From an uncultured Clostridia bacterium (GTDB lineage Bacteria > Bacillota > Clostridia > Lachnospirales > Bianqueaceae): 52,322 nucleotides of DNA. The notes under the pieces were generated by a model, which did no database searches, had not been told where the DNA came from, and saw only the letters and a program-made list of their open reading frames with translations. The position numbers were made by a program, and so were the translations under genes. Below are positions 1,736 through 28,203 of this stretch, piece by piece (within the stretch, counting starts at the first letter, position 1; each line of letters starts with the position of its first letter). Location of the stretch: NCBI GenBank assembly GCA_944383515.1, contig CALWPV010000123.1:1-52322 (forward strand). The letters are read 5' to 3'.

Positions 1736-3199
1736 TCATTTTTTTCTTGATGTCGCCGCTTCGATCCGCTTTATTTGAGTCGATCGAACAAATGCTACAA
1801 AGTCAAAGGAGCTCCGCTTAACGGGGCGGTTTTTAGGCGGCGGCGCAGGCGGCTGCCAGTTTGTCGTGTCATACATTTCATGATACAGAGGAAGATGCGC
1901 AATCAGTTTATACCGGTTTTTTACCATAATGAGCGCCGTTCCCGTAGGCATGGCGGCCAGGCGGCATGCGGTAATGAGCGGTTCGGTGTACGTAGTTCCG
2001 CCAATTTCAAACTGCCGCTGACCGCAGCGCTGTGCCCATTCGGTCAGCGTTTCCCAGCTGTTGGTGGCAAACCCTATGGTAATGCCTACGCAGGACTGAA
2101 TGGTTTCGGCCTTGCTTTTGCCATAAACATCGGTCAGCTGCGAGCTGCTTTGCAAAACCAGCATTAACCGAATGTTGCGACTGCGGCTAGCCACCATTAA
2201 ATTGGGAAGCGAAGGAATGGCCTGGCCAACGGAGCCCAGCTCTTCTAAAATAATATTCACGCGAATGGGCAAGCGGCCGCCGTTTTCTTGCGCGGTACGA
2301 ATTAAATGCTGAGAAACCTGCGAAATCAGCAGACCGGCTAAGCGGTCATAGACATCGGTTTCATCCGGTGTAATCACCATTAACACAAAGGGGCGCGTCA
2401 CGTCTAGCTCTAAAATACCTAGCGTATCTTCACTCAGCATGTCCATGAGCCCTCCGCTGCGGCTAAACACCTCAATGCCAGAGGCCGCCACGCTGTGGAT
2501 AGATCCTCGGGTGTCATTGGGAGCGGTGGCATATGTGGCCAGGTTGCGTTTGGCCAGCGAAGCAGAGTCTAGGGAATCGTAAAAGAGTTTAAGCAGCGTC
2601 GAAGGTCCAATGTGCTGCTCCGACTGCTCCATCATTATAGATACGCTGTCCAAGTTGATGCATTGGGGCGGCGCCAATTCGAACAGACCATACGTCAGTC
2701 CTTTGGCATAGTTCGCCGAAGAATCTATCCAGAACTTGTCCGAGTAGCCGTCGTAGGGGTAGACGCTGTTCCAGAGCTCGCTTACCATAGAACTGGCAAT
2801 ATCCTGATCGTCCGGATTGTCGGAGCGGAACAGGCGGTATGGCGTGCTCAGCGGATTCCATTTAGTAGGGCTTTGGCGCGGCGTACGAAAATCCACACAG
2901 AAAACCTGGTATTCGTCAGGAATATAGCAGGCGTTCGTGCGGTAGCCCTCGCCTTTGGGATCCAGCATAATCAGGCTCTCGCGCTTTTCCAAAATTTCTC
3001 GCATAAACGGCAGGCTGCAGCACTGGCTTTTACCGTTGCCGGTGCGCCCGACCACGGCAATATGCGCCTCGCTGTCGTCAATATACTTTCTGCCGTGTTC
3101 GGTGTAGATGACCGGGCCGGCGCCGTGGGCTTTATCGGTGCTGTCCGGAAAAGAGCGTTTAATTTCGTGGCGCGTATTCCAGCGTTCGTTTTTACTCAT
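1736..3199 (-). CDS. VirD4/TraG-type ATPase, last gene of the ubiquitin-like cluster (TraG-B)
   Basis: This 487-residue protein is a member of the VirD4/TraG/TraD hexameric ATPase family, which normally feeds proteins or DNA into secretion channels. Walker A is GRTGNGKS (51-58), DPKGE follows at 80-84, and the late motif ASRSRNIRLMLVLQS (about 337-351) is typical. The Walker B position reads IILEEL (316-321), with Glu where Asp is usual. No N-terminal membrane helices are present, unlike classical VirD4. The C-terminus has a proline- and lysine-rich stretch (PPAPPPKNRP). The start at 3199 is chosen because AAAGGAG sits just upstream; it overlaps the previous gene by ATGA. No relaxase or secretion channel gene is near, so its client is probably tied to the Ubl system. 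Confidence 0.88.
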   Translation of the reverse strand: MSKNERWNTRHEIKRSFPDSTDKAHGAGPVIYTEHGRKYIDDSEAHIAVVGRTGNGKSQCCSLPFMREILEKRESLIMLDPKGEGYRTNACYIPDEYQVFCVDFRTPRQSPTKWNPLSTPYRLFRSDNPDDQDIASSMVSELWNSVYPYDGYSDKFWIDSSANYAKGLTYGLFELAPPQCINLDSVSIMMEQSEQHIGPSTLLKLFYDSLDSASLAKRNLATYATAPNDTRGSIHSVAASGIEVFSRSGGLMDMLSEDTLGILELDVTRPFVLMVITPDETDVYDRLAGLLISQVSQHLIRTAQENGGRLPIRVNIILEELGSVGQAIPSLPNLMVASRSRNIRLMLVLQSSSQLTDVYGKSKAETIQSCVGITIGFATNSWETLTEWAQRCGQRQFEIGGTTYTEPLITACRLAAMPTGTALIMVKNRYKLIAHLPLYHEMYDTTNWQPPAPPPKNRPVKRSSFDFVAFVRSTQIKRIEAATSRKK

Positions 3200-3981
3200 C
3201 GGTGCGGTCTCCTTTCGGGTTCTTTCTGCCACTGGGCGTGTAAAGACGGCAGGCAGCTTGGGGATATAACGGGAATCTGCTTGGAAAAGTCGGCGAAAGA
3301 GGCCAGGGCGCTCGATACAGCGCTTACTTCTTTCATGGTAGCAATGCCTAGCGTAGGGATTAAGTCTAGCAGCGCGTGATAAAATGTAGACGCATTGTCA
3401 ATTACAATGCCATAGTCTGTGAGACGCTTCATGGTTAACGCGCAAAGCTCTTCGTTAGTATAGGGCGCTACGGTCAGGCGCTTAACCGAATCAATAGTCT
3501 GGCTCAATTTGTCCAGCAGCTGCTCTTCCTGGCGGCTAGGAAAAGAATGAACAAAAAAGACAACCAAGGCATGTTTGCAGATCTGCCGGCAACCGTTTAA
3601 AAACTCCGTGTACTGCGTTTCGCCGGCGTGGGTAGCCAGCGCGCTAATATCCATACTAATAATATTCTCATATGCGTTGGCATACTCTGCCGCCGAGCAA
3701 ATCAGGCCAAACGCCGCGCGAAGCTGAGGCAAAGTACCGTCAAACGTAATTTCAATATAATCGTCTAAGCTACTGGTAAAATCAAGCACGCCATACTCTT
3801 TATAAACGGTAGCCATATATTCCACCAAGGTGGTTCGGCCATAGCCGGAATCCAGCGGAATAATCAGGTGGCAGGGGCGAAGATCGCTCCACTGATATGT
3901 TTTCGCATGGCAGCATGTTTCTTCAATTTCCGCGCATGGCGCGGAAAGCCCGATAGGTCTTTTGCTGTTTAAGTCGTTCAT
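3196..3981 (-). CDS. AAA-like protein with a degenerate P-loop
   Basis: This is a 261-residue soluble protein. LIIPLDSGYGRTTL near the N-terminus resembles a Walker A loop in which the usual GK is replaced by GR. A hydrophobic strand (ALVVFFVHSFP) could be a Walker B or sensor strand, and the C-terminal helical part looks like an AAA lid. Nucleotide binding is therefore plausible but weakened. The start at 3981 follows AAGGAG by 7 bases; an upstream ATG at 4002 lacks this signal and overlaps the ClpP gene. The stop overlaps the start of the TraG-B gene by ATGA, which suggests coupled translation and a joint role. Confidence 0.6.
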   Translation of the reverse strand: MNDLNSKRPIGLSAPCAEIEETCCHAKTYQWSDLRPCHLIIPLDSGYGRTTLVEYMATVYKEYGVLDFTSSLDDYIEITFDGTLPQLRAAFGLICSAAEYANAYENIISMDISALATHAGETQYTEFLNGCRQICKHALVVFFVHSFPSRQEEQLLDKLSQTIDSVKRLTVAPYTNEELCALTMKRLTDYGIVIDNASTFYHALLDLIPTLGIATMKEVSAVSSALASFADFSKQIPVISPSCLPSLHAQWQKEPERRPHR

Positions 3982-3992
3982 GAGCAGTCTCC

Positions 3993-4586
3993 TTATTCGC
4001 ATTTGGCAAACGGATCGCCAATGTGATCGACCAGTCCATATTGCAGGGCGGCCTGCGCGTCCATAATGCGATCGCTTTCGGTGTCGCGTTCAATTTTGGC
4101 TATGGGATTGCCGGTACAGGCGGCCCAAAGTTGGTTGAGTTTGGTGCGCAGGTTTAAAATGTGTTCCGCCTGAATGCGGATGTCGGTAGCTCGTCCGCTG
4201 GCGTCGCCGAGCGGCTGGTGAATTAAAACCTCAGCGCTGGGCTGGCACCAGCGCTTGCCTTTGGCGCCGGCAGCGGCCAGCAGAAAAGCGGCAATGCTTG
4301 CCGTCATGCCACAGGCTACGGTGCAGACGTCGCAGTCTAGGCTTTGAACTGTATCGTAAATGCTTAGGCCAGCGGCCACGGTGCCTCCGGGACTAAAAAG
4401 GTAAAGCGTAATGTCTTCGTCAGAATCCCGCGCTAGGCAGCGAAGAGCGGAGTTGATGTAAACGGCTGTTTCATCGGTAATATCGCCGGCCAGAGAAAGC
4501 GTGCGGTGGGCAAAGTCAATGTCTAAAGGCGACAGCAGCAGGTCTTGCCCGCTCAGGTTAATGGTTTTTCTTAATTGGTAAAGCAT
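3993..4586 (-). CDS. ClpP-like serine protease
   Basis: This 197-residue protein has the normal ClpP length and fold. The catalytic triad is complete: Ser97 in GMTASIAAFLL, His123 in LIHQPLG, and Asp172 in IERDTESDRIM. FSPGG at 65-69 is the usual oxyanion region. ClpP forms two stacked heptamers that degrade polypeptides delivered by an AAA+ unfoldase. No ClpX, ClpA or ClpC gene is adjacent, so delivery may depend on the AAA-like or TraG-like proteins of this cluster, or on cellular Clp ATPases. It is likely a cluster-specific paralogue rather than the housekeeping ClpP, which is usually beside tig and clpX. Confidence 0.9.
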   Translation of the reverse strand: MLYQLRKTINLSGQDLLLSPLDIDFAHRTLSLAGDITDETAVYINSALRCLARDSDEDITLYLFSPGGTVAAGLSIYDTVQSLDCDVCTVACGMTASIAAFLLAAAGAKGKRWCQPSAEVLIHQPLGDASGRATDIRIQAEHILNLRTKLNQLWAACTGNPIAKIERDTESDRIMDAQAALQYGLVDHIGDPFAKCE

Positions 4587-4599
4587 AGGGAATCCTCCA

Positions 4600-5271
4600 T
4601 TATCGATGGTTTTTGGAAATAGGAATGCGGTAGCTCCAATCGGACTGCGTAAACGGATTACTGCTGGCAGGAGCGGGGTGGCGGGCTTGGTATATTAGGC
4701 TAAGCGGATCTAGCAGGCACACCTTGTACAGGCAGCCCAGCAGGCCGATAAAGCAAAGAAAAACAAGGGAATAAGAATAAAAGGAAAGTCCGAGAAACAG
4801 CACAATCGCGCAGAGGGCGGCGCGAAATAGCCATTTGCGCATTCGGGCCTTATGCTCCTGCAGCCGCTCGCGTTCCCGTTCTTGTTTTTGCGCGGCGTAG
4901 CGTCGTAATACAGGCGTAATACCGTGCAGGCGAACCAGCGCATTCCATGAGGCTTCGGCCTGCCTGCGCGGGGCGGTTTCGCGCATTGTCATGTCGGAAA
5001 AGTCTTGAGTGGCCGCCTGTATAATAGCTTCATGCAGCTTTTTGTCGGTAGGATATTGGCCTACTAGCGGGGCTAATCGCTGCAGGGCCTGCTGCCAGTT
5101 TCCGGCCTGTATATGCTGCAGAGCCTGCGCATATGTCTGGTCATATTCCATAAGGCGCTGCTCCTGCTGCGGGTTAAGCCACGGGGCGCCGCAGGTATCG
5201 CATTCCATACGCATGCGGCTGCGATTATAATGAAAATGAGAACCGCCGCAGCGAGGGCAAATGGTTTCCAT
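4600..5271 (-). CDS. Zinc-ribbon membrane protein with a TPR-like middle
   Basis: This 223-residue protein has an N-terminal zinc ribbon (Cys5, Cys8, Cys24, Cys27), a helical middle with a TPR-like unit (QALQHIQAGNWQQALQRL), a charged coiled stretch (QKQERERERLQEHKARM), and two hydrophobic segments near 146-186. The layout suggests a membrane adaptor with a cytoplasmic zinc ribbon. An in-frame ATG at 5283 contains the ribosome-binding site itself, so the start at 5271 is preferred. The gene lies 14 bases upstream of the ClpP gene. I do not recognise a named family. Confidence 0.65.
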   Translation of the reverse strand: METICPRCGGSHFHYNRSRMRMECDTCGAPWLNPQQEQRLMEYDQTYAQALQHIQAGNWQQALQRLAPLVGQYPTDKKLHEAIIQAATQDFSDMTMRETAPRRQAEASWNALVRLHGITPVLRRYAAQKQERERERLQEHKARMRKWLFRAALCAIVLFLGLSFYSYSLVFLCFIGLLGCLYKVCLLDPLSLIYQARHPAPASSNPFTQSDWSYRIPISKNHR

Positions 5272-5290
5272 TGTAACCTCCATTCTTATG

Positions 5291-6259
5291 TTATAGCCGG
5301 CGACCGCAGTGCGGGCAAAAGGCTGCGCCCGGCGGCGCCGGCTGGTGGCAGTGTGGACAGGGCCGGGCTGGCTGCGCTTCGGGGTGTAATAATTGTGAAA
5401 GCAGCATCAGCTGCATAAACGAATCTTGCCCGGCACTTTCTTTAAGTGGGTGGCCGCCGCGGGCGGAAAACCCCGTCATCATTTCGCTTATCGTTCGTTT
5501 ATCAAGATTGCCATTCCACACTCGCTTCAGGTGATCTAGCTCGAGATCGGTCCTGTTTTTGCCCACGGCAAAATCTTGTTCCAAATGGTATAGACGCTGC
5601 ATTTCCGCATCGGGAACATGAACGGCCGCCAGTGTTAATTGCTCCAGATGGAGGCCAAACAAGGCCAGGCCGGAGCGAGCCGCGGGAGTAACGGCCGCGC
5701 TGATGCGCAGCAGATGGCTGTTAAAAGAGGTAATGGACAGGCGGCTCAGCTCGCGGGAAAGCGCTTCGCGAATGGGGGCCAGTATGATTTGTTCTAAACA
5801 AGGGCGGATATTTTCTTCGGAAAAAGAAGTGTTGTAGCTGCCGATCAGGCGCCGCAAAAGGGTGAGCGGATTGGCAATAGACAGGGTTAACTGGCAAGCG
5901 GCCAGCGCCCGCATGGTAATCTGGAAGCGCTGTTCGCGAAAAGGAATTTCGCCGGTTCCCAGCCGCAAAAAGCGGGAGCGCTCGGTAGAAAGAAAAAAGA
6001 CAGATACCACGGCGGCAGGCTCGCCGCCGGTCATAATATGGCGCAGCCTTACGAAGAAGGGGCTCACGCCAGTAAAAAGCTGGTGACGGCCGGGGGCGAA
6101 GGGGGGCGAGAGCTCGCCGTTAATGACAACGAAAGCGGTGGTGCCAGGCGGCACAATTAGGTAGCTTCCGTTGACCACGGTGGTAGCGCGCCCGCAAATA
6201 TTGGGCTGAATGCGAATGAGTTCTTCGCCGCCGGGATCGCGAATAATGGATTGAAACAT
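5291..6259 (-). CDS. SPFH-type scaffold protein with a C-terminal zinc ribbon
   Basis: This 322-residue protein opens like the YdjI/virion-core group of SPFH proteins. A first beta part (ICGRATTVVNGSYLIVPPGT) and GRHQLFTGVSP are followed by a helical SPFH body to about residue 240. The C-terminus carries a double CPHC zinc ribbon (about 301-319) preceded by a proline-rich linker. Proteins of this group oligomerise into large scaffolds at membranes, often with zinc-ribbon partners. The gene next downstream also has a zinc ribbon, so the two may pair. AAGGAG precedes the start by 8 bases. Confidence 0.7.
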   Translation of the reverse strand: MFQSIIRDPGGEELIRIQPNICGRATTVVNGSYLIVPPGTTAFVVINGELSPPFAPGRHQLFTGVSPFFVRLRHIMTGGEPAAVVSVFFLSTERSRFLRLGTGEIPFREQRFQITMRALAACQLTLSIANPLTLLRRLIGSYNTSFSEENIRPCLEQIILAPIREALSRELSRLSITSFNSHLLRISAAVTPAARSGLALFGLHLEQLTLAAVHVPDAEMQRLYHLEQDFAVGKNRTDLELDHLKRVWNGNLDKRTISEMMTGFSARGGHPLKESAGQDSFMQLMLLSQLLHPEAQPARPCPHCHQPAPPGAAFCPHCGRRL

Positions 6260-6274
6260 AGTTACGACTCCTTG

Positions 6275-7045
6275 TTACGGAATGGGGTACGGATTATACT
6301 GTTCGGTTATGCACCGAGGCAGCTTTTCGGTTTGAAAGTTAAAATGATCGGCGGCAAGCTGCGCGTCAGATACATTGAAATAGCGAAAGCCGCTGCGCCG
6401 GTCGCGGCCGGTGTCCCAGGTTACGTCGCAGTGAACGGGGTTTCCCTGGAGCCAGGCAATGGTCCAGCAGTGGGCGGTTTGGTCGGCGGCGCGCCCGGAG
6501 GCTTTAATACAGGGGATTTTTAGACGGCGCAGGCAGAGCAGAAGCAGGGCGTTGTAGCCTTCGCAAACGCCGGAAGAGAACAGAACCGGTCCTACCACCG
6601 TATGATCGCTGGGATCTTTGCGATCCACATACGAAAGACGGCGGGCAATGCGTTCGTAGGTTAGGGCCTCGCGCTCCGGCTCGGAAAGCGAGGCGGTGCC
6701 GCGCACCATTTGGAAGATGGTTTTCCGGAGCTCATGCTGAATTTGGCGAATTTGAGACGCGGTGTACAGAATGGGATATTGCAGCAGGCCTTCCTGGCCC
6801 GAGTAGGGAGAAAAAAAGCGTAGCCGTATGCCCAGAAAGAAGTATTCGGGGTGGTCTTCACGCAGGGCTTCAAAAGCGGCAAAGCTGTCGGAGGCGGCGG
6901 TTTCAGGCTGACTGATGGCTACGGGAACCTGGCCGGAAAAGTCTGCGCGCTGCAGCTGAGCATGGAGGCGGTCGTACACGCCTTGTCCCTGCTTAGACAG
7001 GAACTGGCGGTAGTAAAAAGCGCCTAGGTTGGCCGGCGGCTTCAT
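6275..7045 (-). CDS. Transglutaminase-like cysteine peptidase
   Basis: This is a 256-residue cytoplasmic protein. Residues about 155-215 match the transglutaminase-like fold: the catalytic Cys161 lies in SGVCEGYNALL, His192 in AHCWTIAW, and Asp211 in HCDVTWD. Bacterial members usually act as peptidases rather than cross-linkers. In this setting it could mature the Ubl or its substrates, or remove Ubl from targets. The helical N-terminal 150 residues are unlike known family members that I can recall. The start overlaps the JAB gene by four bases. Confidence 0.82.
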   Translation of the reverse strand: MKPPANLGAFYYRQFLSKQGQGVYDRLHAQLQRADFSGQVPVAISQPETAASDSFAAFEALREDHPEYFFLGIRLRFFSPYSGQEGLLQYPILYTASQIRQIQHELRKTIFQMVRGTASLSEPEREALTYERIARRLSYVDRKDPSDHTVVGPVLFSSGVCEGYNALLLLCLRRLKIPCIKASGRAADQTAHCWTIAWLQGNPVHCDVTWDTGRDRRSGFRYFNVSDAQLAADHFNFQTEKLPRCITEQYNPYPIP

Positions 7046-7902
7046 GAGGGCGTCTCCTTAGAGCCGGCCGGGGCCAGAAGTTTGAGCGTGAGGCATTTTT
7101 GCCCTCGAACCGTAGTGCGCGTGCGAATGGTTCCGCTGTAGCCGGGAGTCTGCAGGCAGTGGCCGGCAAGCTGTACAATTTGGTCGGCCGGGGGCAGGTC
7201 CGATATGCTGCGAGCGGGAGCCGTTTGGCGGGTATACACAATAACTTCGCAGGGCTCAAAGTCTTTGCCGATACTGCCTAGCATGGTTTTTCGAATGGGG
7301 TCGCACACAAAAATACATACGGGCAATTTGGCGGCGCGGGCAGCGCCGCTAACTTTATCGGTCTGGCTGTAAAAAACGCCGAGATCGGGATGTGTGTGGC
7401 CTTCCAGAACAAATTCTGAAGGGCCGCAAAGCGAAAGGAAGGGATCTACCGTAAAGCCGCGCGCATCGGTATTGTATTTGGCCTCTGTTTGAAGAAATTC
7501 TTCACAGAAGTAGGCTAAAAAGTCGATTCCCGGGTTGTATTCCCCATGGGGGCCAAGATTGGAGGCGCTTACGGCGCTGCGGTTTTTGGTAAGGATTTCA
7601 ATAAAGTGTTTGACAATAACGAGAAAGTGCCCCTGTTCGTCGGTTAAAAAGTGCCCATAGCCAATGTATTTTTGTTCTTTTTCATTCATGGGGGAGCGTC
7701 TGCCGTAGGAAATCATGACTTCAAGCTCCCGGGTGGCTTCCGGCAGAAAGATAACTGTATGCGAGCCGGTTCCGTGCCTTTCCGCAACCTGCACTGGTCC
7801 GCACTGGGTTTCAATTAGGTGAATCGCCTTTTGCAGCGAGCAGCGGGGCAGTACTTTGGGCGGCATGGGACGGCGCGGCGGCAGTGGTGTGAAAGTAGCC
7901 AT
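7042..7902 (-). CDS. JAB/JAMM metalloprotease, predicted deubiquitinase-like enzyme
   Basis: This 286-residue protein contains a clear JAMM motif: HTHPDLGVFYSQTD at 169-182, with His169, His171, Ser179 and Asp182 matching the HxH(x7)SxxD zinc site. JAB enzymes cut isopeptide or peptide bonds after a ubiquitin-like C-terminus, and so either mature the Ubl or release it from targets. The N-terminus begins with a proline-arginine stretch (PLPPRRPMPPKVLPR) that echoes motifs in the E2 and in the small membrane protein of this cluster. AAGGA lies 9 bases before the start. Confidence 0.9.
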   Translation of the reverse strand: MATFTPLPPRRPMPPKVLPRCSLQKAIHLIETQCGPVQVAERHGTGSHTVIFLPEATRELEVMISYGRRSPMNEKEQKYIGYGHFLTDEQGHFLVIVKHFIEILTKNRSAVSASNLGPHGEYNPGIDFLAYFCEEFLQTEAKYNTDARGFTVDPFLSLCGPSEFVLEGHTHPDLGVFYSQTDKVSGAARAAKLPVCIFVCDPIRKTMLGSIGKDFEPCEVIVYTRQTAPARSISDLPPADQIVQLAGHCLQTPGYSGTIRTRTTVRGQKCLTLKLLAPAGSKETPS

Positions 7903-7917
7903 AGAAACATTCCTTTT

Positions 7918-8547
7918 TTAGCATTTTCTGGGAGGAAGCGGAGGCGGTACGGGGCGAGAGGCAGCGGCGTGGCGAGGGCGACGCGGCGGCAGATCAGGAA
8001 CATATAAAAGCTTAGGAGGCAGGGTGGGAAATTGCCTGCTGGCAACGCCGCTTTTGTGCCACTGCTCCATATCGCCGTTAGCCATGCTGTCGTAGCGGGT
8101 GACCACCGGGTCGTGAATCATGTCGTGCACCAATTTATCTACCACCGTTGTTAAAGAGCTGGTAAACGGAATCCAGTTGTCTATGCAGGCAACCCCGCTG
8201 CGGAACACATTAGGGCTGGCTAAAAAGTGATCGGGCGCGTAATAGGCATAAACAGATTTGAGCGGATAGCCGGGGTAGCAGATAATATGGACGCTCATGC
8301 CCCGGCATTCTTTCGGCGCTTTGTCGTTTAAAGAAGTAAGGTAATGCGAGGGGGCATTGACAGTTACCACAAGGTGCAGCGCTTCGCCCGGCTCGGCGTG
8401 GATTTTTTGAATGGTGACATAGCGGGCGTTGTAGCGGCGCTGCAGATCAAGGTAATCGTTTTCCAGCGCTTCTAGGTAGTCATTTTCAGAAATAGAAGCC
8501 ATGCGGCTGGCGCCGGTTTCGTCTTGATACGTAACAGAATAAGTCAT
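7918..8547 (-). CDS. E2-like (UBC fold) conjugating enzyme
   Basis: This is a 209-residue protein. Residues about 45-150 follow the UBC order: a beta-rich core, YPGYPLKSVYAYY (compare the YPxxPP of E2s), SPNVFRSGVACIDNW with the predicted catalytic Cys121 (compare HPNI...GxxCLD), and the helix VVDKLVHDMIHDP. A tail after residue 175 is proline-arginine rich and ends PPPLPPRKC. E2 enzymes take the Ubl from E1 as a thioester and pass it to a target. The start at 8547 is preferred over 8571 because GGAGG precedes it by 7 bases; the upstream ATG lacks one and overlaps the E1 stop. Confidence 0.88.
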   Translation of the reverse strand: MTYSVTYQDETGASRMASISENDYLEALENDYLDLQRRYNARYVTIQKIHAEPGEALHLVVTVNAPSHYLTSLNDKAPKECRGMSVHIICYPGYPLKSVYAYYAPDHFLASPNVFRSGVACIDNWIPFTSSLTTVVDKLVHDMIHDPVVTRYDSMANGDMEQWHKSGVASRQFPTLPPKLLYVPDLPPRRPRHAAASRPVPPPLPPRKC

Positions 8548-8570
8548 AATAACCTCCATTTCATTTTCCA

Positions 8571-9845
8571 TTAGCAGGATAACTTTTGAATCTGGCGCAT
8601 TTGACAGTGATCTTCGTCAAGGGCAAAGAAGGTGGTTTTTATTTTGTCTCGGTCTAACAAGTCGAACGCGCCTTGGCGCTCGATCACTTCTATATGCGCG
8701 CCCAAAGGGTAGCCTAGGTCAAAGAGCGTCATGTCTTGTATGGCGTCTTCGCAGGAAGGGGTGAACGCATATAAAAGCGTGCGAGGCAGATCACTGGTAA
8801 GGTAGGGCTGTTTGCCATGGAGATTGCATTCGAGGCAAAGCAGATGGTGAGGGAAGGTTCGCCCGGCATGTTTCAGTACGCGTATGGGTTTGCCGCAGGC
8901 GCGGCAATACTCGGTAACAATAAAGCAAGAATGCAGTACTTCTTTATAATGCAGGCGGTGCACCGAAAGCTCAAAGTCTGTTGTGCCCAGCTGCTCACTG
9001 ATTTGCTGCATCGCTTCACGCAGGCTAACTGTTAGTACGCTGCCGCGCAGCCAGCGCAAATGCGCGGGGGGCTGAATAGCGCAGCCGGGGCAGTTACGTT
9101 TGGGAAGAGGGTGAGAAACACGAAGCTCTAACCCGGGGTATGCCGTATAGGTAAGGCGGCGGTTCATAGCGCCCGGAGCGCCGGTAACATAGCCGCGGTA
9201 TTGCTCGGTGCTAAGGTGAGCGGCCAAAGAGCTGGCGCGCGCTGAAGTGCGAACGATAGGAGCGAGGCCGTCGTTTTGACGAATAGGAGCGCTGGTGCAG
9301 GAAGTGCGTACGGCGCTGTCTTTCAGCCAGCTTTCGTCCATGAGGCAGCGAAGACAAAATTCAGTGTTGTCCAGCATGACGCTCTGCGCCATTTCGCCGT
9401 ACGTACCGTCCATAATCAGTAAGGGACGGCGCTCCGGAGGAAGCTGCCGAATGAGTTCGTTTAGTAATACCTTAGCCGCAAAATTGTCCAGAGCGGCAAA
9501 GACTACGTCGTAATCGGCAAAAGCTTCTGGTCCTAGCAGGCAGAGATCGCTGTCTATGCCATGGGAGGTACAGCCTTGATCCAGAAAGGGTTTTACACGT
9601 TCTGACACGCAAACGGCCTTGTTACGGCCGGCGTCTTCCGGCGTGCGGATCAGGGAGCTGTGTTTGGCGGCATTTTCAAGGGTTAAAACGTCAAAGTCAA
9701 CGGCATCGGGCGAGGCGCCCATTTTGGCAAGCTGCTCTATAAGGTAGGAGCCTACGGCTCCGCAACCAACTACGCAGACGCGCCGATTATGAAATAAAGG
9801 GCGGTCGGTCATTAGTTTATCTGGATTATATAAAACAGAATTCAT
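8571..9845 (-). CDS. E1-like (ThiF/UBA) Ubl-activating enzyme
   Basis: This 424-residue protein carries the Rossmann ATP site GCGAVGS (27-33), the Arg/Lys pair near 74-76, and ALDN (118-121). Structural zinc pairs CLRC (164-167) and CPGC (252-255) are present. VRTSCTSAP (179-187) resembles the CT-type active-cysteine region of E1 enzymes, with Cys183 the likely thioester residue. The C-terminal third is extra, with a second set of CxxC pairs (314/317 and 337/340), and ends in Cys. It should adenylate the Ubl C-terminus and pass it to the E2 encoded next. Its length exceeds ThiF or MoeB (about 250). Confidence 0.9.
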   Translation of the reverse strand: MNSVLYNPDKLMTDRPLFHNRRVCVVGCGAVGSYLIEQLAKMGASPDAVDFDVLTLENAAKHSSLIRTPEDAGRNKAVCVSERVKPFLDQGCTSHGIDSDLCLLGPEAFADYDVVFAALDNFAAKVLLNELIRQLPPERRPLLIMDGTYGEMAQSVMLDNTEFCLRCLMDESWLKDSAVRTSCTSAPIRQNDGLAPIVRTSARASSLAAHLSTEQYRGYVTGAPGAMNRRLTYTAYPGLELRVSHPLPKRNCPGCAIQPPAHLRWLRGSVLTVSLREAMQQISEQLGTTDFELSVHRLHYKEVLHSCFIVTEYCRACGKPIRVLKHAGRTFPHHLLCLECNLHGKQPYLTSDLPRTLLYAFTPSCEDAIQDMTLFDLGYPLGAHIEVIERQGAFDLLDRDKIKTTFFALDEDHCQMRQIQKLSC

Positions 9846-9886
9846 AGCAATGAGTGTCCTTTAAGTAATGCTTTTGTATGCAAAAG

Positions 9887-10249
9887 TTAGAGTGGTTTGC
9901 CATTGGTTTTAAACCAGTGGCCGTGGGAACAGTGATACAGGTTTTGCGCGCTGTCAAAGAAAATTTTTTGTGGCGCGTGAGGTAAATTGCGCTGCTTGTC
10001 AAAGGGACAGCAGGGAAATTGTAAAGGGGAAAGGCCGCGGGGCCCTGGCGAGCCTTCCGCGGCTCTGTTTGCCTGCGCGGGGCGGTTTCGCGGCGGCAGT
10101 GGCGGAGGCTCCGGGCCGGGAAAGCGTCGTGGCGGCAGCGGCGGCGGACCCTGGTGAATGCGGGCCCTTCGCTTTTTACGTTTGGAACGGGCCGCCGCGA
10201 TACCATAAATCAATAGCCCCAATAGAATCAGAGAGCCCAGAGTCTCCAT
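9887..10249 (-). CDS. Small membrane-anchored protein with PPPLPPR repeats and a Cys/His tail
   Basis: This is a 120-residue protein. One transmembrane segment covers about residues 4-20, followed at once by a dense Lys/Arg patch, which predicts a cytoplasmic C-terminus. Two copies of PPPLPPR occur near 36-53, and a tail carries CCPFD and YHCSHGHW, which could bind metal. The same LPPRR-type motif occurs in the E2 and JAB proteins. It may tether the Ubl machinery to the membrane. I do not know a matching family. GGAGG lies 8 bases before the start. Confidence 0.75.
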   Translation of the reverse strand: METLGSLILLGLLIYGIAAARSKRKKRRARIHQGPPPLPPRRFPGPEPPPLPPRNRPAQANRAAEGSPGPRGLSPLQFPCCPFDKQRNLPHAPQKIFFDSAQNLYHCSHGHWFKTNGKPL

Positions 10250-10267
10250 AGTCGTAACCTCCTGCGT

Positions 10268-10567
10268 TTATGCTACGCATCCGTCATCGGTAACGAGCAG
10301 TACGTCGCCGTCTTGCAGGCCCAGGCCTGTCACCGTTTCATTTAAATCTGAGGTGGAGTCTCCTGTGCGCTTATTGTCAAAAACAATTTTTGCTGCGTTA
10401 GGATTGATACCTACATCCAGCGCATATTCGTCTAAAAGCTGGCGCATAGTATTATTGCCGTCTACAGAAACCTGGGGCACACTGGTTTGGGTAGACTTGT
10501 TCATCAGTTCAATAGTAATGCAGTTTTTGGCTGTGGCTAATGCATTGTCAATAGAATAATCAGTCAT
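10268..10567 (-). CDS. Ubiquitin-like beta-grasp protein (Ubl)
   Basis: This 99-residue protein follows the ubiquitin order: strand ITIELMN, helix TMRQLLDEYALDVGI, strand KIVFDNKRTGD, then the turn and last strand GLGLQDGDVLLV. It ends DDGCVA. No GlyGly is present, so either the final CVA is trimmed to expose Gly96 or a different C-terminus is used. A JAB and a transglutaminase-like peptidase in the same operon could do the trimming. It is presumably the protein activated by the E1 and carried by the E2. AAAGGAG precedes the ATG. Confidence 0.85.
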   Translation of the reverse strand: MTDYSIDNALATAKNCITIELMNKSTQTSVPQVSVDGNNTMRQLLDEYALDVGINPNAAKIVFDNKRTGDSTSDLNETVTGLGLQDGDVLLVTDDGCVA

Positions 10568-10593
10568 GGGTTATGTCTCCTTTGCGTTTTTTA

Positions 10594-10863
10594 TTATGCG
10601 TTTTCTTGGTCACTGTCGTGCCGATCGTACGGAGCTTTGCCGTAGTCATTAGGATTATTGTAGTAATAGTGGTCATAGTGTCCGTTGCCGTCGCCGCGTG
10701 CCCAGACGTCGATGCGGTCTTCTCTTTCACGAATCAGTTCTCCATTGGGGCCTTCATAAGCGAAAATGCCCTGGCCGGCGTCAAGAATGTCTTCTTCTAA
10801 AGAGCGGTCGGCGTAACGAGACGTGTCGTATGTACCGTTAAATTTGCCATCCCATTTACTCAT
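10594..10863 (-). CDS. Small hydrophilic Asp/Tyr/His-rich protein at the head of the Ubl module
   Basis: This 89-residue protein matches no family I know. It is very polar. The middle reads IFAYEGPNGELIREREDRIDVW, a likely beta-hairpin. The tail is a low-complexity run rich in Asp, His, Tyr and Asn (GHYDHYYYNNPNDYGKAPY) that could be disordered or metal-binding. The start at 10863 is chosen because GGAGG is 8 bases away; the ATG at 10869 is too close to it. Its position just before the Ubl gene, and first after a terminator, suggests a core component such as a substrate or adaptor. Confidence 0.7.
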   Translation of the reverse strand: MSKWDGKFNGTYDTSRYADRSLEEDILDAGQGIFAYEGPNGELIREREDRIDVWARGDGNGHYDHYYYNNPNDYGKAPYDRHDSDQENA

Positions 10864-10894
10864 GGTCATGTCCTCCTTTAGGATTGAATGGATT

Positions 10895-10908
10895 TAACCA
10901 AGTGGTTA
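10895..10908. promoter_or_regulatory. Short palindrome in the leader of the Ubl module
   Basis: TAACCAAGTGGTTA has perfect 6-base arms around AG. It lies 32-45 bases upstream of the first gene of the Ubl section, between the internal terminator and the ribosome-binding site. It could be an operator. I could not find convincing -35 and -10 boxes beside it. Confidence 0.35.
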
Positions 10909-10951
10909 TATTTTTGTATACGGGCGGCAGCGGAAAATCTCCACGTATAGC

Positions 10952-11022
10952 GTAAAAAAATAAAAAAAATACCGGGAAACAGAGTTTAACCTTTTTTTGA
11001 GGGTAAAAACTCTATTTCCCGG
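10952..11022 (-). terminator. Intrinsic terminator inside the ubiquitin-like cluster
   Basis: The arms at 10972-10987 and 11007-11022 (CCGGGAAA and TTTCCCGG at the outer ends, AGAGTTT and AAACTCT inside) form a stem of about 16 pairs with one mismatch. On the minus strand it is followed by two T-runs (10953-10971). It lies downstream of the gene ending at 11058. It would end, or attenuate, transcription of the head section and leave the Ubl section partly independent. T-rich sequence on the other side could make it bidirectional. Confidence 0.8.
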
Positions 11023-11057
11023 CATCTTTTTACTAATTTGGGGGGAGCCGCAACGGC

Positions 11058-11438
11058 TTATTGGCCCTTGTGGGCCCTGTCGTAATCCTGCTTTCGCTTT
11101 ATTTCTCGTAACAGGTATTTGAGCTCATAGGCTTTAACAAGCTCCAGTTCCGTGCCTTCTTCTAGTAGGGTCAGGTGCTCTTCGTCCTGCTTTGCCGATA
11201 CTCTGGCGTAGACAGGCTCGGCAATATTCTCCTCTGGAAGCAGGTGGTAATAGGTGGTTCCGCGAATGAGAAAGGCATGCAAAGCCAAATAATCGGTGTT
11301 GTTGATTGTTACAATATCTAGCTCTATGGTTTCGTCGGTATCGTCTTCAAACAGAGAAGTTATTTGTTCATAGAAATACCGCACCTGAGGGTTGGAAGCA
11401 AGAAAAGCCTCCATTTGTTCATTGAATGAATCTGCCAT
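11058..11438 (-). CDS. Small acidic protein, DUF1292/YrzB-like
   Basis: This is a 126-residue acidic protein. After a helical start, residues about 35-105 show paired beta-strands (TIELDIVTINNTDYLALHA, TYYHLLPEE, VYARVS) and an EELELVKAYELKYLL-like end. This resembles the DUF1292 (YrzB) family, whose function is unknown. I am not certain of the match. It is the last gene before the internal terminator, and a clear GGAGG precedes the start. Confidence 0.5.
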   Translation of the reverse strand: MADSFNEQMEAFLASNPQVRYFYEQITSLFEDDTDETIELDIVTINNTDYLALHAFLIRGTTYYHLLPEENIAEPVYARVSAKQDEEHLTLLEEGTELELVKAYELKYLLREIKRKQDYDRAHKGQ

Positions 11439-11456
11439 AGTCGGTTCCTCCGTTTT

Positions 11457-12158
11457 TTAGGGGGATTTTTCGGTGGTGTCTTCCGGTATAGGCCGGTCGG
11501 TAATAGAAGAGAGGGGAATAAAAAATTTTTTAGGGTAGGCGAGCATAATGGCGCGCAGCTCAGACGGAGTTAAATAAGAAGAAAAATCCGTTAAGGCAGC
11601 CTGGTACAGCAGCCATTCGTCCCACTGCCCCATTTCGTGCATCAGTTCTTCGGCGGAAGCCCGGCTGCGCGGCATGCGGGCCAGGTAAGAAGTTAAATAG
11701 TCTTCAAAATCGTCGTCTAAAAAAAGGGTAAAAACTTCTGCTAAACTATGAAAGCGCGGCTTAGTTTTGAGCCAGTCTGGAAAAGTAGGAATGGCCGCGG
11801 TTAGCTGATCGGAGATATCTTCCATAAGGCCATAGCTGCTTTTCTTAATTTTATGGTGTCGAAGCAAAAAATAGTGTACAAGCAGGTTTTCCGTATCGGG
11901 GGTATGCAGAGAAACGCCCCACCGCGACTGGATACGGGAAGCATCGACAAGCGGGAGGTTTTTCATGAGGGCGTCGGCAATTTGCCAGTCTTTATCGGTT
12001 CCTAAACAGAAGGCAAAAGTAAGAGCCGCATTCACCAGCGCGGCGGAGTTGCCCCGGCGAACTTCGGGGGTAATCAGGCGAAGGGCGCGTAACGGGGAAT
12101 GGGCCGCCACCTCCATATTCTGCATCCACAAGGGCCACAGAGACGCAGGCGTATTCAA
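11457..12158 (-). CDS. Helical protein of unknown function in the cluster head
   Basis: This is a 233-residue protein, mostly helical, with no signal peptide or membrane segment and no motif I recognise. The start is a TTG at 12158 with a strong GGAGGG 8 bases upstream; the next ATG in frame (codon 12) has no such signal. The neighbours are the TPR-like gene (12-base gap) and the DUF1292-like gene. A helical repeat or adaptor fold is possible, but this is inference from composition only. Confidence 0.65.
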   Translation of the reverse strand: MNTPASLWPLWMQNMEVAAHSPLRALRLITPEVRRGNSAALVNAALTFAFCLGTDKDWQIADALMKNLPLVDASRIQSRWGVSLHTPDTENLLVHYFLLRHHKIKKSSYGLMEDISDQLTAAIPTFPDWLKTKPRFHSLAEVFTLFLDDDFEDYLTSYLARMPRSRASAEELMHEMGQWDEWLLYQAALTDFSSYLTPSELRAIMLAYPKKFFIPLSSITDRPIPEDTTEKSP

Positions 12159-12170
12159 TAGGCTCCCTCC

Positions 12171-13208
12171 TTACTCACTCACGTACTCGTATAAGAGTTC
12201 ATACGAGGGATCCACGGCAATGCCGGTTTTATTGACCAAGGTGTTGGTTTTCGTACGGATTACTTCGGTATAGCTACTTTGGGTTTTTTGGAATTTAGCA
12301 AGAGCAATGTTGAAATCGGAATAAATGCTACGAACGGCTTCTTCGTCCAAGTGCAGATCCGTTTCTACTTGCTGAGCGAGCGCAATTTTACAGAGCGCGT
12401 TCAAATAATAAACATAGCCTTCATTCACGCTGGCCTGTGTCTGGTTAGCGTCGTGAATGGCGCGCTGCACCGCGGCAGCGGCTTCGCTATACAGACCGCG
12501 CTCAAACAAAATATCCGCGTAGCGGAGCGCGCATTTGGGCGCGATGCGAACGTTTTCCAGCGCCAGCCTTAGCACGGCGGCTTCCTGATCCGGTAGGTTC
12601 AGCATGCGGTATACATTGGACTCGGAGCGGTAAGGCTCTTCGGTATACGGAAACTGCTTGCGAAAATCGGTAGCAATCGATACTAATTCTTGCTCCTTGG
12701 CGTCTAGCTCTTTGGCAGAGTCACTGCGGTCCATTAAAAATAGCAGGTACTCCATTAAAAAGGCAAAGCCACGCCAGGTCCAGCGGCGGCGGGGAATTTT
12801 GAGAAGGGTTTTATAGTATTTTTTGCATGCGTCTAGCTGATTGCAGCGCGTACCGTACTGTAAATAGTCGGCCAGCAAATCTACATTTTTCGGAAACAGG
12901 CGCAGCCCGCAGTCCAGCACGGTGCAGGCGTAAACGTATTCGTTTCGCTGCGCCAATACGACGGAAAAATTGTGAAAGTCGTTAGCGTCGCCCGGTTGTT
13001 GCGGCTGCGCCGCAAATTGCTGAATCAGTTCGTATAAATCTTGCCGGGAGTCATCGTCTTCTGTTACATAAATGTAGTGCAATAGGGTTTGCGCTTTGGC
13101 GCAGGCACTGCTTACCGGCAGCATAATGGCGGAAGATGTCTGCTGCGGCTGTTCTTCGGTGAAGGTATCTTCTTCTGGGGTAATCATAATTTCTTGTTCG
13201 CTACTCAT
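12171..13208 (-). CDS. TPR-like helical repeat protein
   Basis: This 345-residue protein has helix pairs spaced like TPR units, for example YACTVLDCGLRLFPKNVDLL, ALRYADILFERGLYSEAAAA and DLYELIQQFAAQP. The first 30 residues are acidic and probably disordered. TPR proteins act as adaptors. The start overlaps the TraG-A stop by 8 bases, so the two are co-translated and may bind each other. AAGGAG lies 7 bases before the ATG. Confidence 0.6.
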   Translation of the reverse strand: MSSEQEIMITPEEDTFTEEQPQQTSSAIMLPVSSACAKAQTLLHYIYVTEDDDSRQDLYELIQQFAAQPQQPGDANDFHNFSVVLAQRNEYVYACTVLDCGLRLFPKNVDLLADYLQYGTRCNQLDACKKYYKTLLKIPRRRWTWRGFAFLMEYLLFLMDRSDSAKELDAKEQELVSIATDFRKQFPYTEEPYRSESNVYRMLNLPDQEAAVLRLALENVRIAPKCALRYADILFERGLYSEAAAAVQRAIHDANQTQASVNEGYVYYLNALCKIALAQQVETDLHLDEEAVRSIYSDFNIALAKFQKTQSSYTEVIRTKTNTLVNKTGIAVDPSYELLYEYVSE

Positions 13209-14847
13209 GGGATTCTCCTTGTTGGTTAAGATGCTCTAAGCGCTGCCGGTACGCTTCTTTTTCCAGTTCTATAATGCGGGCATTAACACTGCGCATAACC
13301 GTATTCAGATCGGCTGGTTTGTTTGGCGCAGACGTGGGGGCGGGTCGGTTGGCGGTAAAGGGGCTGCCTTCTTTGTACGGATTGGGAGGCAAGGCAGGGG
13401 TGTATTTTTTCGTAATGTCTTCGCGCAGCGCGAAGGTTAGCTTTTCGCGCGGTAAGCGGTTATGCTGCTTGTGGTCTAATAGAATATAACTGCGGTCGCC
13501 GAATTTGTCGATATCCAGCATATTGACTTTGGCAGGCTTTAGCCGCCCGGCTAATACCAGCGCTTCGCGGCGCTCTTTGCTCAAATGCTGCAAGTCATAT
13601 ACGCTAATGTTAGGCATATGGTTTTTCTGCGTTCCGCAAAGATCCGAAAGCTCATGCAGCAGGCTGAGTTCACGGCTGGTAAAGAAAATCCAGTTATTGC
13701 AGTTGGAAATAATGGTTTCAGCTTCTTCCGCATAGCGCTGCTTTAGCGAAGACTGGCTTTGCACCACCAATAAAAAGCGAATATCGCGGCTGCGCGCGGC
13801 GCTGATCATGGAGGGCATGTCAGCGATTTTGGGAAGCGACGAAAATTCGTCTAGAATATAGTTAATCCGGTTTGCCACTTTGTTTTCTTGGGTTTGCGAA
13901 GCGAGATAGATAATATATTCGTAGCTTTCCTTAATAAACATAGACACCAGGCGGTGATAGCTGGTTTTTTCGTCGGGGGTAATTAAAAAAACGGCCGTTT
14001 TGCTTTTGCCAATATCGGCAATGTCGAAGTCGTGGTTGGCAAGCATGTCTAACAAAGCCGGCTGAATCATGAAGGCTCTCATTTTCTGGTCGAACACGCT
14101 GAGAATACTGTTCATGGTATCGCGGGGGGCGTACACGCTGCCCGACAGGCTCGCGGCGGCCAGCTCGTCTTCGGAGGCATATTTCCACAGCGTGGTGTTT
14201 TGCGGCAGTTTATCGCTGGAAAAAAGCATGCGGCGCAAGGTTAGCAGGTTGCCGATATTGACCGCGTTTTCAGGAGCGTTGTGGTCTTTGCAGTAGCGAA
14301 AGAGCAGCTGAATGAGGCCGTATAGCAAATCGGAGGCCGAGAAGTCCCAGAAGGGATCGTCGGTGGAACGGTCGCTCACCATTAGGTTGTTGGCAATGTC
14401 ATTGATAAATTCCGCGGATTTATCGAGGTTTCCCTGCATGTAGAACTGGTAGGGAATGTGAAGCGGATTCCAGGCATTGCCCACGCGAGGGTCGCGGAAA
14501 TTGATCTCTACAATGGTATATCCCTGTTTTTTTAAATCGCCGGCATGGCGGGCAAACAGTTCTCCCTTCGGGTCGTTAATAATCATGGATTCATTGGCGT
14601 ACCCAAGCACCTTAATACCGGGCGATACAATAGAGCGGGTTTTGAGCGAGCCGGTTGAGCCATATACCAGCGTGTGGGTATCGCCGGCATCGATGTAGAG
14701 CCGCCGGGTCTCGGCGTCATAGTAAATGGGAACGCCGCCATGGAATTTGGCTCCCTGAGCCGGAGAAAACTGGCGGGTATTGAGGTCGAAATAGGGGTAT
14801 GTTTTTTTGAGTTTATCCGGGGTTTCAAAGCCGGGAATGGTTTGCAT
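13201..14847 (-). CDS. VirD4/TraG-type ATPase with an altered P-loop (TraG-A)
   Basis: This 548-residue protein is a paralogue of TraG-B. Its Walker A region reads GSTGSLKT (63-70): the Gly before the invariant Lys is Leu, as the codons show directly (TCG CTC AAA ACC). DPKGE is at 92-96 and Walker B is intact (ILDEF, 331-335), followed by SAARSRDIRFLLVVQSQSSL. No N-terminal membrane helices are present. The C-terminal 100 residues are linker and coiled-coil. GGAGG precedes the start by 6 bases. With TraG-B it may form a mixed ring in which only one subunit type is fully active. Confidence 0.88.
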   Translation of the reverse strand: MQTIPGFETPDKLKKTYPYFDLNTRQFSPAQGAKFHGGVPIYYDAETRRLYIDAGDTHTLVYGSTGSLKTRSIVSPGIKVLGYANESMIINDPKGELFARHAGDLKKQGYTIVEINFRDPRVGNAWNPLHIPYQFYMQGNLDKSAEFINDIANNLMVSDRSTDDPFWDFSASDLLYGLIQLLFRYCKDHNAPENAVNIGNLLTLRRMLFSSDKLPQNTTLWKYASEDELAAASLSGSVYAPRDTMNSILSVFDQKMRAFMIQPALLDMLANHDFDIADIGKSKTAVFLITPDEKTSYHRLVSMFIKESYEYIIYLASQTQENKVANRINYILDEFSSLPKIADMPSMISAARSRDIRFLLVVQSQSSLKQRYAEEAETIISNCNNWIFFTSRELSLLHELSDLCGTQKNHMPNISVYDLQHLSKERREALVLAGRLKPAKVNMLDIDKFGDRSYILLDHKQHNRLPREKLTFALREDITKKYTPALPPNPYKEGSPFTANRPAPTSAPNKPADLNTVMRSVNARIIELEKEAYRQRLEHLNQQGESHE

Positions 14848-14858
14848 GGCGTACCTCC

Positions 14859-15851
14859 TTACATAAATAATGTATCGGCCGATAAAGCAAGAGTATATTC
14901 GTCGATAGCCCGCTGCAACGCGGCATCGGCGGCGCTGGCGCCGGCCTGCGCGATATGGTAATCTTCTTCCAATTTGTCAATGCGGGCCTGGCGCGTTTCT
15001 TTTTTAATGAGATCGCCGGATAACTCCAGCGCTTCGCGCTCTAAATCCAGCTGCGCCGCAAGCAGCTCAACAATAATATGCCATTCGTCCAGATTATGGA
15101 GAAGCTGCTGCTTTAAGGGAAGCAGCTCGGGGCTCTGCTCGGTAACGCCCAGCTGAGCGAGGCAGTAGTGAATGGTTCGAATGAGCCAACGGTCGTGTTC
15201 TTCCGAGTCTTTTACCCAGGCGGCGCCGTCTTGATAGCTCTGCATATTCATAAAGTAAGGAAATGAGATTTCTTCAATATACAGTTTAATGGCCCGGTAG
15301 ATACGCAGCCGGGCTTCGCGCAGCTGCGTTACGGTATCGGCTTCAACCAGATGGTTCATAGCCATTTCCAGATTGGTGACTACCCGGGTGCGCCGGGAAG
15401 CCATCTGCTGTTGTAAAAAAGTGGGAATATCTGTGGTGAAAGGGTCAGCCGTAGCCGCCGCGCCGGAAGAGGGAATGGAAGAAACCCGGCCGTCCGGCTG
15501 TAAAACGAATTTATAGCCATACCCTCGCTCTTCTACAATAATCGTAAAAGGCCGCTTGTCACGGAGCTTTTTACGAAGCGTATAGACCATGGGTTTTACC
15601 TGATCGGGCGCCCCTCTATCGGTAATTTCCTGAGGAAACATATGGTGCAGAATCTGTAAAGGCGATAGAAACTGGTTTTTATTCTGGTAAAAATACGCCA
15701 GGAGAATTAAAAATTTATTGGTTAACCGCTCGGGTTCTTCGCCTTCAATTCGGATTAGGTGAGCCCCAAAGTCAATGGTGCAGTGGCCCGGAATGCGGAC
15801 GACTTCTTCCGGAATCTGGTAGGTATGGTTATACCGGACAATTTCAAGCAA
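14859..15851 (-). CDS. OmpR-type winged-helix protein, first gene of the cluster
   Basis: This protein of about 330 residues has an OmpR/PhoB winged-helix domain over about residues 30-115. Typical features are LTNKFLILLAYFYQNKNQFL, VKPMVYTLRKKLRDK, and the wing VEERGYGYKF. There is no receiver domain, so it is not a two-component response regulator. The C-terminal 200 residues are helical and charged and may sense a partner. A GTG at 15860 lies inside the ribosome-binding site, so a TTG at 15851, 8 bases from AGGAGG, is the more likely start. It is probably the regulator of the cluster. Confidence 0.78.
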   Translation of the reverse strand: MLEIVRYNHTYQIPEEVVRIPGHCTIDFGAHLIRIEGEEPERLTNKFLILLAYFYQNKNQFLSPLQILHHMFPQEITDRGAPDQVKPMVYTLRKKLRDKRPFTIIVEERGYGYKFVLQPDGRVSSIPSSGAAATADPFTTDIPTFLQQQMASRRTRVVTNLEMAMNHLVEADTVTQLREARLRIYRAIKLYIEEISFPYFMNMQSYQDGAAWVKDSEEHDRWLIRTIHYCLAQLGVTEQSPELLPLKQQLLHNLDEWHIIVELLAAQLDLEREALELSGDLIKKETRQARIDKLEEDYHIAQAGASAADAALQRAIDEYTLALSADTLFM

Positions 15852-15985
15852 AAGGCTCACCTCCTTACGAAGTTTTTTTCTACCGAAAAACTACCAAACA
15901 GAGGGTAGTTCTACTTTGGCGGTATCGTTTCTTCTACTTTCATGCCGGATACTTAGAGGTATCAAGCAGAGAGGAGACTGAAACA
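15852..15985. promoter_or_regulatory. Divergent control region of the ubiquitin-like cluster
   Basis: The region between the winged-helix gene and the sigma-like gene lacks convincing sigma-70 boxes. It holds three TTCTAC copies (15878, 15909, 15932), the last two extended to TTCTACTTT and 23 bases apart. AACTACC and GGTAGTT form an inverted repeat (15889-15910), and GATAC/GTATC another (15948-15963). These are candidate sites for the winged-helix protein or the sigma-like protein. Confidence 0.5.
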
Positions 15986-23679: not shown

Positions 23680-23719
23680 GGCTATATGTGCCGAAGCGCC
23701 TCAAATAGCTTCCTTCACA

Positions 23720-23770
23720 GGCGCAAATTTGAAATCTGCGCTGCGATCTCCGCGCTAAAGCGCTTCGGAA
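23720..23770. repeat. 51-bp palindromic repeat, copy 1
   Basis: This copy matches the one at 25806-25856 at 47 of 51 positions. It contains a GGCGCAAATTT... inverted repeat and the palindrome GCGCTAAAGCGC. The two copies bracket the AAA/HEPN pair, each just upstream of a ribosome-binding site. Confidence 0.85.
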
Positions 23771-23781
23771 TGGAGGTTACA

Positions 23782-25032: not shown

Positions 25033-25046
25033 GTGGAGGTGATAAT

Positions 25047-28179: not shown

Positions 28180-28203
28180 ATGAAATTGGTATGGATAACA
28201 TGA
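28180..28203 (+). CDS. Possible 7-codon leader ORF coupled to the ASCH gene
   Basis: GAGGAG (28166-28171) has an ATG 8 bases later (28180). That ORF encodes MKLVWIT and stops at 28201-28203. The stop overlaps an ATG of the ASCH gene as ATGA. This would supply translation to a gene that has no ribosome-binding site of its own. Confidence 0.35.
   Translation: MKLVWIT

Follow-up and report, generated by a model that had tools for sequence, protein, structure and literature searches.

A clostridial gene cluster with a complete ubiquitin-like conjugation set and a possible link to a ClpP protease module

Overall organization

The window is the whole 52,322-nucleotide stretch analyzed, contig C123 (CALWPV010000123.1) of the 2.34-Mb, 98%-complete genome of an uncultured gut bacterium of the Clostridia, the closest named relatives of which are Lachnospiraceae-type metagenome-assembled genomes (MAGs). 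It carries a minus-strand cluster of 17 open reading frames (ORFs; 1736-15860) encoding a ubiquitin-like protein (Ubl), an E1, an E2, and a JAMM peptidase together with a ClpP protease and two VirD4-like ATPases; the intergenic gaps range from -37 to +41 nt, with a single exception of 188 nt. The cluster splits into two modules, a Ubl core (Ubl, zinc-membrane protein, E1, E2, and JAMM) and a trio (ClpP, the degenerate AAA-like protein p2, and the soluble VirD4-like ATPase 2), which in the window run in one direction with tight spacing. We tentatively propose, at a little less than even probability, that the cluster is a self-contained pathway for Ubl conjugation with a ClpP protease module coupled to it, whereby targets would be tagged reversibly at a membrane platform and delivered to a VirD4/ClpP machine.

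The conjugation core

The five core genes, all on the minus strand, are as follows.

10268-10567, minus: Ubl, 99 residues, β-grasp (Pfam Rad60-SLD, 1.2e-05, above cut-off)
9887-10249, minus: membrane-anchored zinc protein with a proline-rich linker and a conserved CC...C-x2-GH zinc-like motif (six-locus alignment, hydropathy)
8571-9845, minus: E1, 424 residues, single ThiF/MoeB-type adenylation domain (Pfam ThiF, 9.6e-19, one match, residues 20-202)
7918-8547, minus: E2, UBC fold, catalytic-type Cys121, SPN(x7)C motif, C-terminal LPPR tail (AlphaFold2 model, Foldseek, VIA; alignment)
7042-7902, minus: JAMM/MPN peptidase, HxH-x10-D, N-terminal LPPRR motif (AlphaFold2 model, PDB search; alignment)

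The initial annotation had recognized the four conjugation components, and this was confirmed by Pfam and profile searches, by AlphaFold2 models of E2 and JAMM, and by invariant catalytic residues. Judged from the alignments, all four are present with their catalytic residues intact and are genetically linked in six loci; both sequence and fold lend good support to the tagging chemistry. Pfam searches gave no convincing match for E2 or for JAMM (0.025), and the models of both were built on six homologues. All Foldseek rows listed for the E2 model (pLDDT 72) are E2 or ubiquitin E2 variant (UEV) folds, none with an E value of <0.001, and the VIA Z score of 9.8 likewise agrees with the UBC fold claimed for 7918-8547. 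The proposed start at 8547 is the conserved one (the ORF could open at 8571, making Cys121 Cys129), and the UBC-type Cys121 is invariant in the loci aligned, as is an oxyanion-type Asn eight residues upstream. The JAMM model (pLDDT 68) matched MPN structures, the best being the Rpn8-Rpn11 dimer (Z 11.2), and also the bacterial Ubl-deubiquitinase 8tyx; its HxH-x10-D motif is invariant in the loci aligned. Besides the adenylation domain, the E1 has a catalytic-type Cys183, again invariant, a C-terminal zinc ribbon, and possibly an end like a ubiquitin-fold domain (UFD). The zinc-membrane protein gene sits between Ubl and E1 in every one of the six loci aligned, and its product is a candidate E3 or adaptor; a PDB search gave it no credible match, and a Pfam search of the cluster found no RING E3.

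For the Ubl, the Rad60-SLD match and the match of a C-terminal profile to BilA agree with the β-grasp expected at 10268-10567, a fold assigned from profiles, as the structure models cover E2 and JAMM. The tail of the window Ubl is encoded as ...TDDGCVA, that of most relatives as ...DNAGVA, and that of L008 as GGVA followed by seven residues; none of the Ubls compared is encoded with a terminal Gly, and seven of the eight domains have Val-Ala there. A profile of the Ubl C terminus finds Methylobacterium BilA 8u38 (E value, 7.6e-4), in which the sequence ...LNAGVA aligns with ...DNAGVA and NAGVA lies two residues before the end. Because BilC, the JAMM of that system, is reported to cut the BilA tail and expose a C-terminal Gly (PMC11354881), the likeliest maturation of the window Ubl would be cleavage after Gly; alternatively, the mature protein may end in Ala. 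In one relative (L015:7687-8250), a single ORF encodes two tandem Ubl domains, the second directly after the first and each with a terminal NAGVA. The copies share 92.7% protein and 79% DNA identity, with 42 synonymous but 6 nonsynonymous codon differences among 82 codons: purifying selection keeps both. A second Ubl in L010 (14550-14843) ends in ENAHII, having lost the Gly-Val-Ala end, and is perhaps a nonconjugating paralogue.

Conserved linkage and distribution

Relatives were found in genomes G003 and G004, in Candidatus Pseudolachnospira avium (L007), in a Lachnospiraceae MAG (L008), and in an IMG/VR contig (L015/L044). A conserved neighborhood had been predicted, and it does recur in five other loci (L007, L009, L010, L015/L044, and, as the core only, L008), so the linkage is not due to chance. 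L007 has the window gene order and differs just in cargo; L015/L044 keeps this order with inserted genes, two of which separate the modules in L015; in L010, there are two Ubl genes, and unrelated genes spanning about 5.5 kb separate the zinc-ribbon gene from ClpP; and L009 is cut by a contig end. L008 consists of Ubl, zinc-membrane protein, E1, E2, and JAMM and adjoins a kinase-STAND-TPR (STK-STAND-TPR) gene. The system is rare: the E2 profile had hits in 3 of the 392 genomes searched for the order and 1 of the 381 searched for the class, and the JAMM profile hit 1 of the 398 searched for the phylum. An origin from a mobile element or phage was rejected, since the E2 has no match in plasmids or phages and chromosomal genes (ATP synthase, AICARFT) flank the cluster in the window; L015, which was drawn from IMG/VR and may be viral, has the same cluster.

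The ClpP module and its putative motors

The protease module and the second VirD4-like ATPase comprise the following genes.

3993-4586, minus: ClpP, triad Ser97/His123/Asp172 intact (Pfam CLP_protease, 4.4e-53; alignments)
3196-4002, minus: p2, P-loop-like protein, GxGRTT with the Lys lost, overlapping ClpP and VirD4-like ATPase 2 (alignments)
1736-3232, minus: VirD4-like ATPase 2 (VirD4-2), CD1115-related, soluble, Walker A/B intact (Pfam T4SS-DNA_transf, 1.9e-29)
13201-14847, minus: VirD4-like ATPase 1 (VirD4-1), soluble, Walker A/B intact (Pfam T4SS-DNA_transf, 1.3e-38)

The cluster ClpP differs from the housekeeping ClpP, which a genome search located on contig C80. VirD4-2 also matches NCBIfam NF045973 (1.2e-48, below cut-off). 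A normal AAA ATPase was rejected for p2, which has no family or PDB match and lacks the P-loop Lys. Hydropathy revealed no clear transmembrane segment in either VirD4-like protein, and a search for VirB4 across the 98%-complete genome gave no P-loop_TraG match; on these grounds, a type IV secretion system was rejected.

The trio genes overlap one another and stay together where Ubl is absent (L029, L036, and G914), which makes a coupling of the predicted system to proteolysis plausible. L029 encodes VirD4-1, TPR, 233-residue, and 126-residue proteins along with ClpP, p2, and VirD4-2, with no Ubl part in between, and the 5.7-kb contig L036 has the order p2-like, VirD4-like, ClpP. In G914, from another family of the class (C42; L056:79-10592), ClpP, p2, and VirD4-2 are followed by genes for coiled-coil, zinc-ribbon/FHA, and radical-SAM-like proteins, a ClpB-type AAA ATPase, a PP2C, and a Ser/Thr kinase, possibly a phospho-signaling version of the trio; because the ClpB-type ATPase is present, VirD4 need not act as the unfoldase there. 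We infer from these arrangements that the trio is a portable effector module, driven by Ubl tagging or by phospho-signaling. Its occurrence with and without Ubl yields a new, testable claim, namely, that ClpP can work with a motor of the DNA-pump type. Neither a ClpP nor a Ubl match turned up in the sequence stretches examined for seven further VirD4-1 homologues (L030-L035 and L037).

Membrane platform and a shared docking-like motif

Three genes between the modules encode a peptidase and putative scaffold parts.

6275-7045, minus: transglutaminase-like cysteine peptidase, Cys-His-Asp triad intact (Pfam Transglut_core, 1.4e-06; motifs)
5291-6259, minus: SPFH/Band-7 scaffold with a C-terminal zinc ribbon (Pfam Band_7_1, 9.5e-17; Zn_Ribbon_1, 7.5e-07)
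4600-5283, minus: zinc-ribbon protein with C-terminal membrane segments (sequence, hydropathy)

Pfam, motifs, and hydropathy thus upheld what had been read from the letters for this part of the cluster: a transglutaminase-like peptidase, a ClpP with a full triad, an SPFH protein, zinc-ribbon membrane proteins, and two VirD4-type ATPases. A PxLPxR-type motif is common to the E2 C-tail, the JAMM N terminus, and the linker of the zinc-membrane protein and, in some species, to the SPFH C terminus. Its core, [LM]P-x-R, is often PPPLPPR, the class II SH3-ligand pattern, and occurs 30 times in 5,794 residues of the E2/JAMM/zinc-membrane/SPFH/TM183 set, whereas a background of 38,387 residues has 2 occurrences and the remaining cluster proteins (3,554 residues) have none; these counts are descriptive rather than a test, the motif having been picked after the sequences were viewed and its copies in relatives not being independent. 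In L008 (11391-12416), SGSCLPPRRGDT-like repeats have expanded in the E2 C-tail, which multiplies the docking-like motif. The shared motif predicts a docking hub. No SH3-type reader of it was found, and because the L008 core already carries the motif, the reader may be the E1, the Ubl, or a housekeeping protein.

Comparison with known systems

The system is not Bil, as judged from its E1 and E2, and it is not CBASS, PRTRC, or FtsH-ternary. Like the bacterial ISG15-like system Bil (BilABCD), it has separate Ubl, E1, E2, and JAMM genes and the tail similarity described above. However, the BilB E2 carries a Cys-Glu-His-His motif (PMC11354881), whereas the window E2 has SPN(x7)C followed by IDNWIPFTSSL, with no Glu or His at the BilB spacing; and the cluster E1 has one adenylation domain, whereas BilD is a pseudodimer of inactive and active adenylation domains (IAD+AAD). 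The cluster also adds zinc-membrane, SPFH, transglutaminase-like, ClpP, and VirD4 genes. BilA has two Ubl domains; the window Ubl has one, and that of L015 is tandem. Operon type 6d of Iyer 2006 (PMC1779556) shares Ubl, JAB, and separate E1 and E2 but has a conserved C-terminal Gly in Ubl, where no Ubl is encoded with one here (processing could expose it), and an α-helical protein that was not recognized in the cluster, the E2 of which retains Asn at the HPN position. The FtsH-ternary conflict systems with a Ubl tri-ligase likewise bring a full Ubl conjugation set and an ATPase tied to a protease together in a single cluster of the conflict type, and a link to target degradation has been proposed for them (PMC7159879); among the 17 genes, however, there is no FtsH, MoxR-vWA, EAD1, or Ubl-E2 fusion, and ClpP and VirD4-like ATPases are present instead. 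Type II cyclic oligonucleotide-based antiphage signaling systems (CBASS; Cap2/Cap3) share the E1/E2/JAMM chemistry, but E1 and E2 are separate here (fused in Cap2), the Ubl is dedicated, and no CD-NTase is found among the 17 genes. PRTRC was rejected (E1 versus PRTRC ThiF TIGR03736, 17.9 bits; cut-off, 144.75). The cluster ATPases belong to the family of CD1115-type VirD4 coupling proteins but have no clear membrane anchor or conjugation genes and are partnered with ClpP; compared with ClpXP/ClpCP, the ClpP triad is intact, but in the window cluster a VirD4-like ATPase and p2 stand in the place of an Hsp100 partner gene.

In the literature searched, we found no earlier account of this combination, and a prior mention may exist. 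New here are the tandem Ubl of a relative, the common PxLPxR motif, a hairpin that splits the cluster, and a conserved divergent sigma-like gene. Bacterial Ubl systems studied to date are described as acting through tagging; if the proposed coupling is true, a complete Ubl cascade tied to a self-compartmentalized protease bears on the origin of ubiquitin-directed degradation. The pairing of a Ubl kit with ClpP recurs in a few related bacteria and might represent a bacterial equivalent, home-grown, of the ubiquitin-proteasome pathway.

Proposed mechanism and alternatives

In the pathway that we tentatively favor, JAMM would trim the Ubl tail, and split the tandem form of the relative, leaving Gly exposed at the C terminus; adenylation of Ubl by the MoeB-like E1 would be followed by its transfer onto the E1 Cys; and E2 would accept it as a thioester and conjugate it to targets, probably helped by the membrane-anchored zinc protein. 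The PxLPxR motif would dock E2, JAMM, SPFH, and the zinc-membrane protein on one hub at the SPFH/zinc-ribbon membrane platform. Tags could be removed by JAMM and perhaps also by the transglutaminase-like peptidase, and one or both VirD4-like proteins, as hexamers helped by p2, would pull tagged targets into ClpP. Envelope stress or attack by phage probably sets the pathway off. An initial suggestion of tagging at a membrane platform followed by a ring ATPase acting with ClpP or in export stands for the quartet, the scaffold parts, and their linkage; the hand-over to ClpP is plausible, and the export branch is disfavored by the soluble ATPases and the lack of VirB4. Somewhat unlikely is a broader version in which a bacterial ubiquitin-proteasome analogue recognizes Ubl-tagged proteins at the membrane platform, a soluble non-AAA+ unfoldase of the VirD4/HerA class feeds a dedicated ClpP, and the module is coupled to phospho-signaling in other Clostridia.

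Several points weigh against the favored pathway. The core and the trio are separable, the core occurring alone in L008 and the trio operating in other settings in L029, L036, and G914; because of this, the biochemical link between them is one that we infer. The modules are also set apart in L010 and L015 by the unrelated and extra genes noted above. The P-loop Lys is lost in p2, and we are not aware of any motor of the VirD4 family that delivers substrates to ClpP. As encoded, the window Ubl ends in DDGCVA, and the distance from Gly to the end is not constant across relatives; family searches of the cluster turned up no E3.

The same separability, together with the BilA-like tail and the position of the lone L008 core beside an STK-STAND gene, would suit a Bil-like antiphage system in which the tag alone would inactivate its phage or host targets, with the ClpP/VirD4 trio as a separate defense module that is merely co-located. 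We consider this somewhat unlikely, given that the window, L007, L010, and L015 all have the two modules joined, with one direction and tight spacing in the window. The context is immune-like in both an STK-STAND-TPR gene beside the L008 core and a WHH/colicin-DNase nuclease inside L015 (14799-18087 together with an adjoining HerA-like ATPase, an insertion that separates the zinc-ribbon gene from ClpP). Such nuclease and STAND neighbors fit a conflict role and, like the very patchy distribution (3 of the 392 genomes searched for the order), speak against envelope-stress quality control, in which the SPFH/zinc-ribbon platform would sense membrane damage and flag the affected membrane proteins for turnover, without any phage-specific role. 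B. subtilis YdjG/YdjI form a comparable SPFH/zinc-ribbon membrane platform, and the zinc ribbon at the SPFH C terminus, the zinc-ribbon membrane proteins, and the sigma-like and winged helix-turn-helix regulators listed below are what this improbable explanation has in its favor. Ubl-dependent export, with VirD4-like coupling proteins driving tagged proteins through a secretion channel, would draw on the membership of both ATPases in the coupling-protein family and on the toxin-like WHH/colicin-DNase cargo of L015; it is very improbable because the motors are devoid of clear membrane segments and VirB4 is missing genome-wide.

Regulation, cargo, and neighboring genes

The remaining features of the cluster and its border are listed here.

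10594-10869, minus: 91-residue variable gene at the cargo site before Ubl, without family match
about 10965-11026, minus: probable terminator, strong 20-bp hairpin plus T-tract (-32 kcal/mol, z -8.1), inside the 188-nt gap
11058-11438, minus: 126-residue conserved protein (synteny)
11457-12158, minus: 233-residue conserved protein with no assigned fold (synteny)
12171-13208, minus: TPR protein, conserved beside VirD4-1 (weak Pfam TPR; synteny)
14859-15860, minus: OmpR-type winged-helix regulator (Pfam Trans_reg_C, 4.6e-09)
15986-16837, plus: divergent sigma-70-region-2-like regulator (Pfam just 0.04), conserved beside the cluster

Because this strong hairpin with a T-tract sits in the 188-nt gap, the VirD4-1/TPR genes and the genes from Ubl to VirD4-2 are probably separate transcription units; strong hairpins also lie upstream of Ubl in L007, L010, and L015, with T-runs missing in L007 and L015. 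The sigma-like gene adjoins the cluster in L007, L009, and L010/L011 and is absent from the same-genus genome G001, which has no E2; by this gene's predicted association, the system reaches beyond the 17 ORFs to 15986-16837. Both tested flank genes are missing from G001, so an empty site is not definable there.

Variable cargo occupies the pre-Ubl site and the ClpP junction across loci (ASCH, ASCH-KptA, BRCT, SprT-like, YbjN, HerA-like ATPase, and WHH/colicin-DNase nuclease). An ASCH-KptA-like (RNA 2'-phosphotransferase) fusion recurs as nearby cargo at L007 (about 7388-8310) and L029 (9410-10393), as judged by Pfam on the L029 copy. Elsewhere in the window, a likely toxin/defense pair, made up of an AAA_21 ATPase and then a RiboL-PSP HEPN protein (23686-25751), lies about 8 kb from the cluster, and a stand-alone ASCH gene (28191-28670) lies directly upstream of SbcD/SbcC-like genes (29176-33466).

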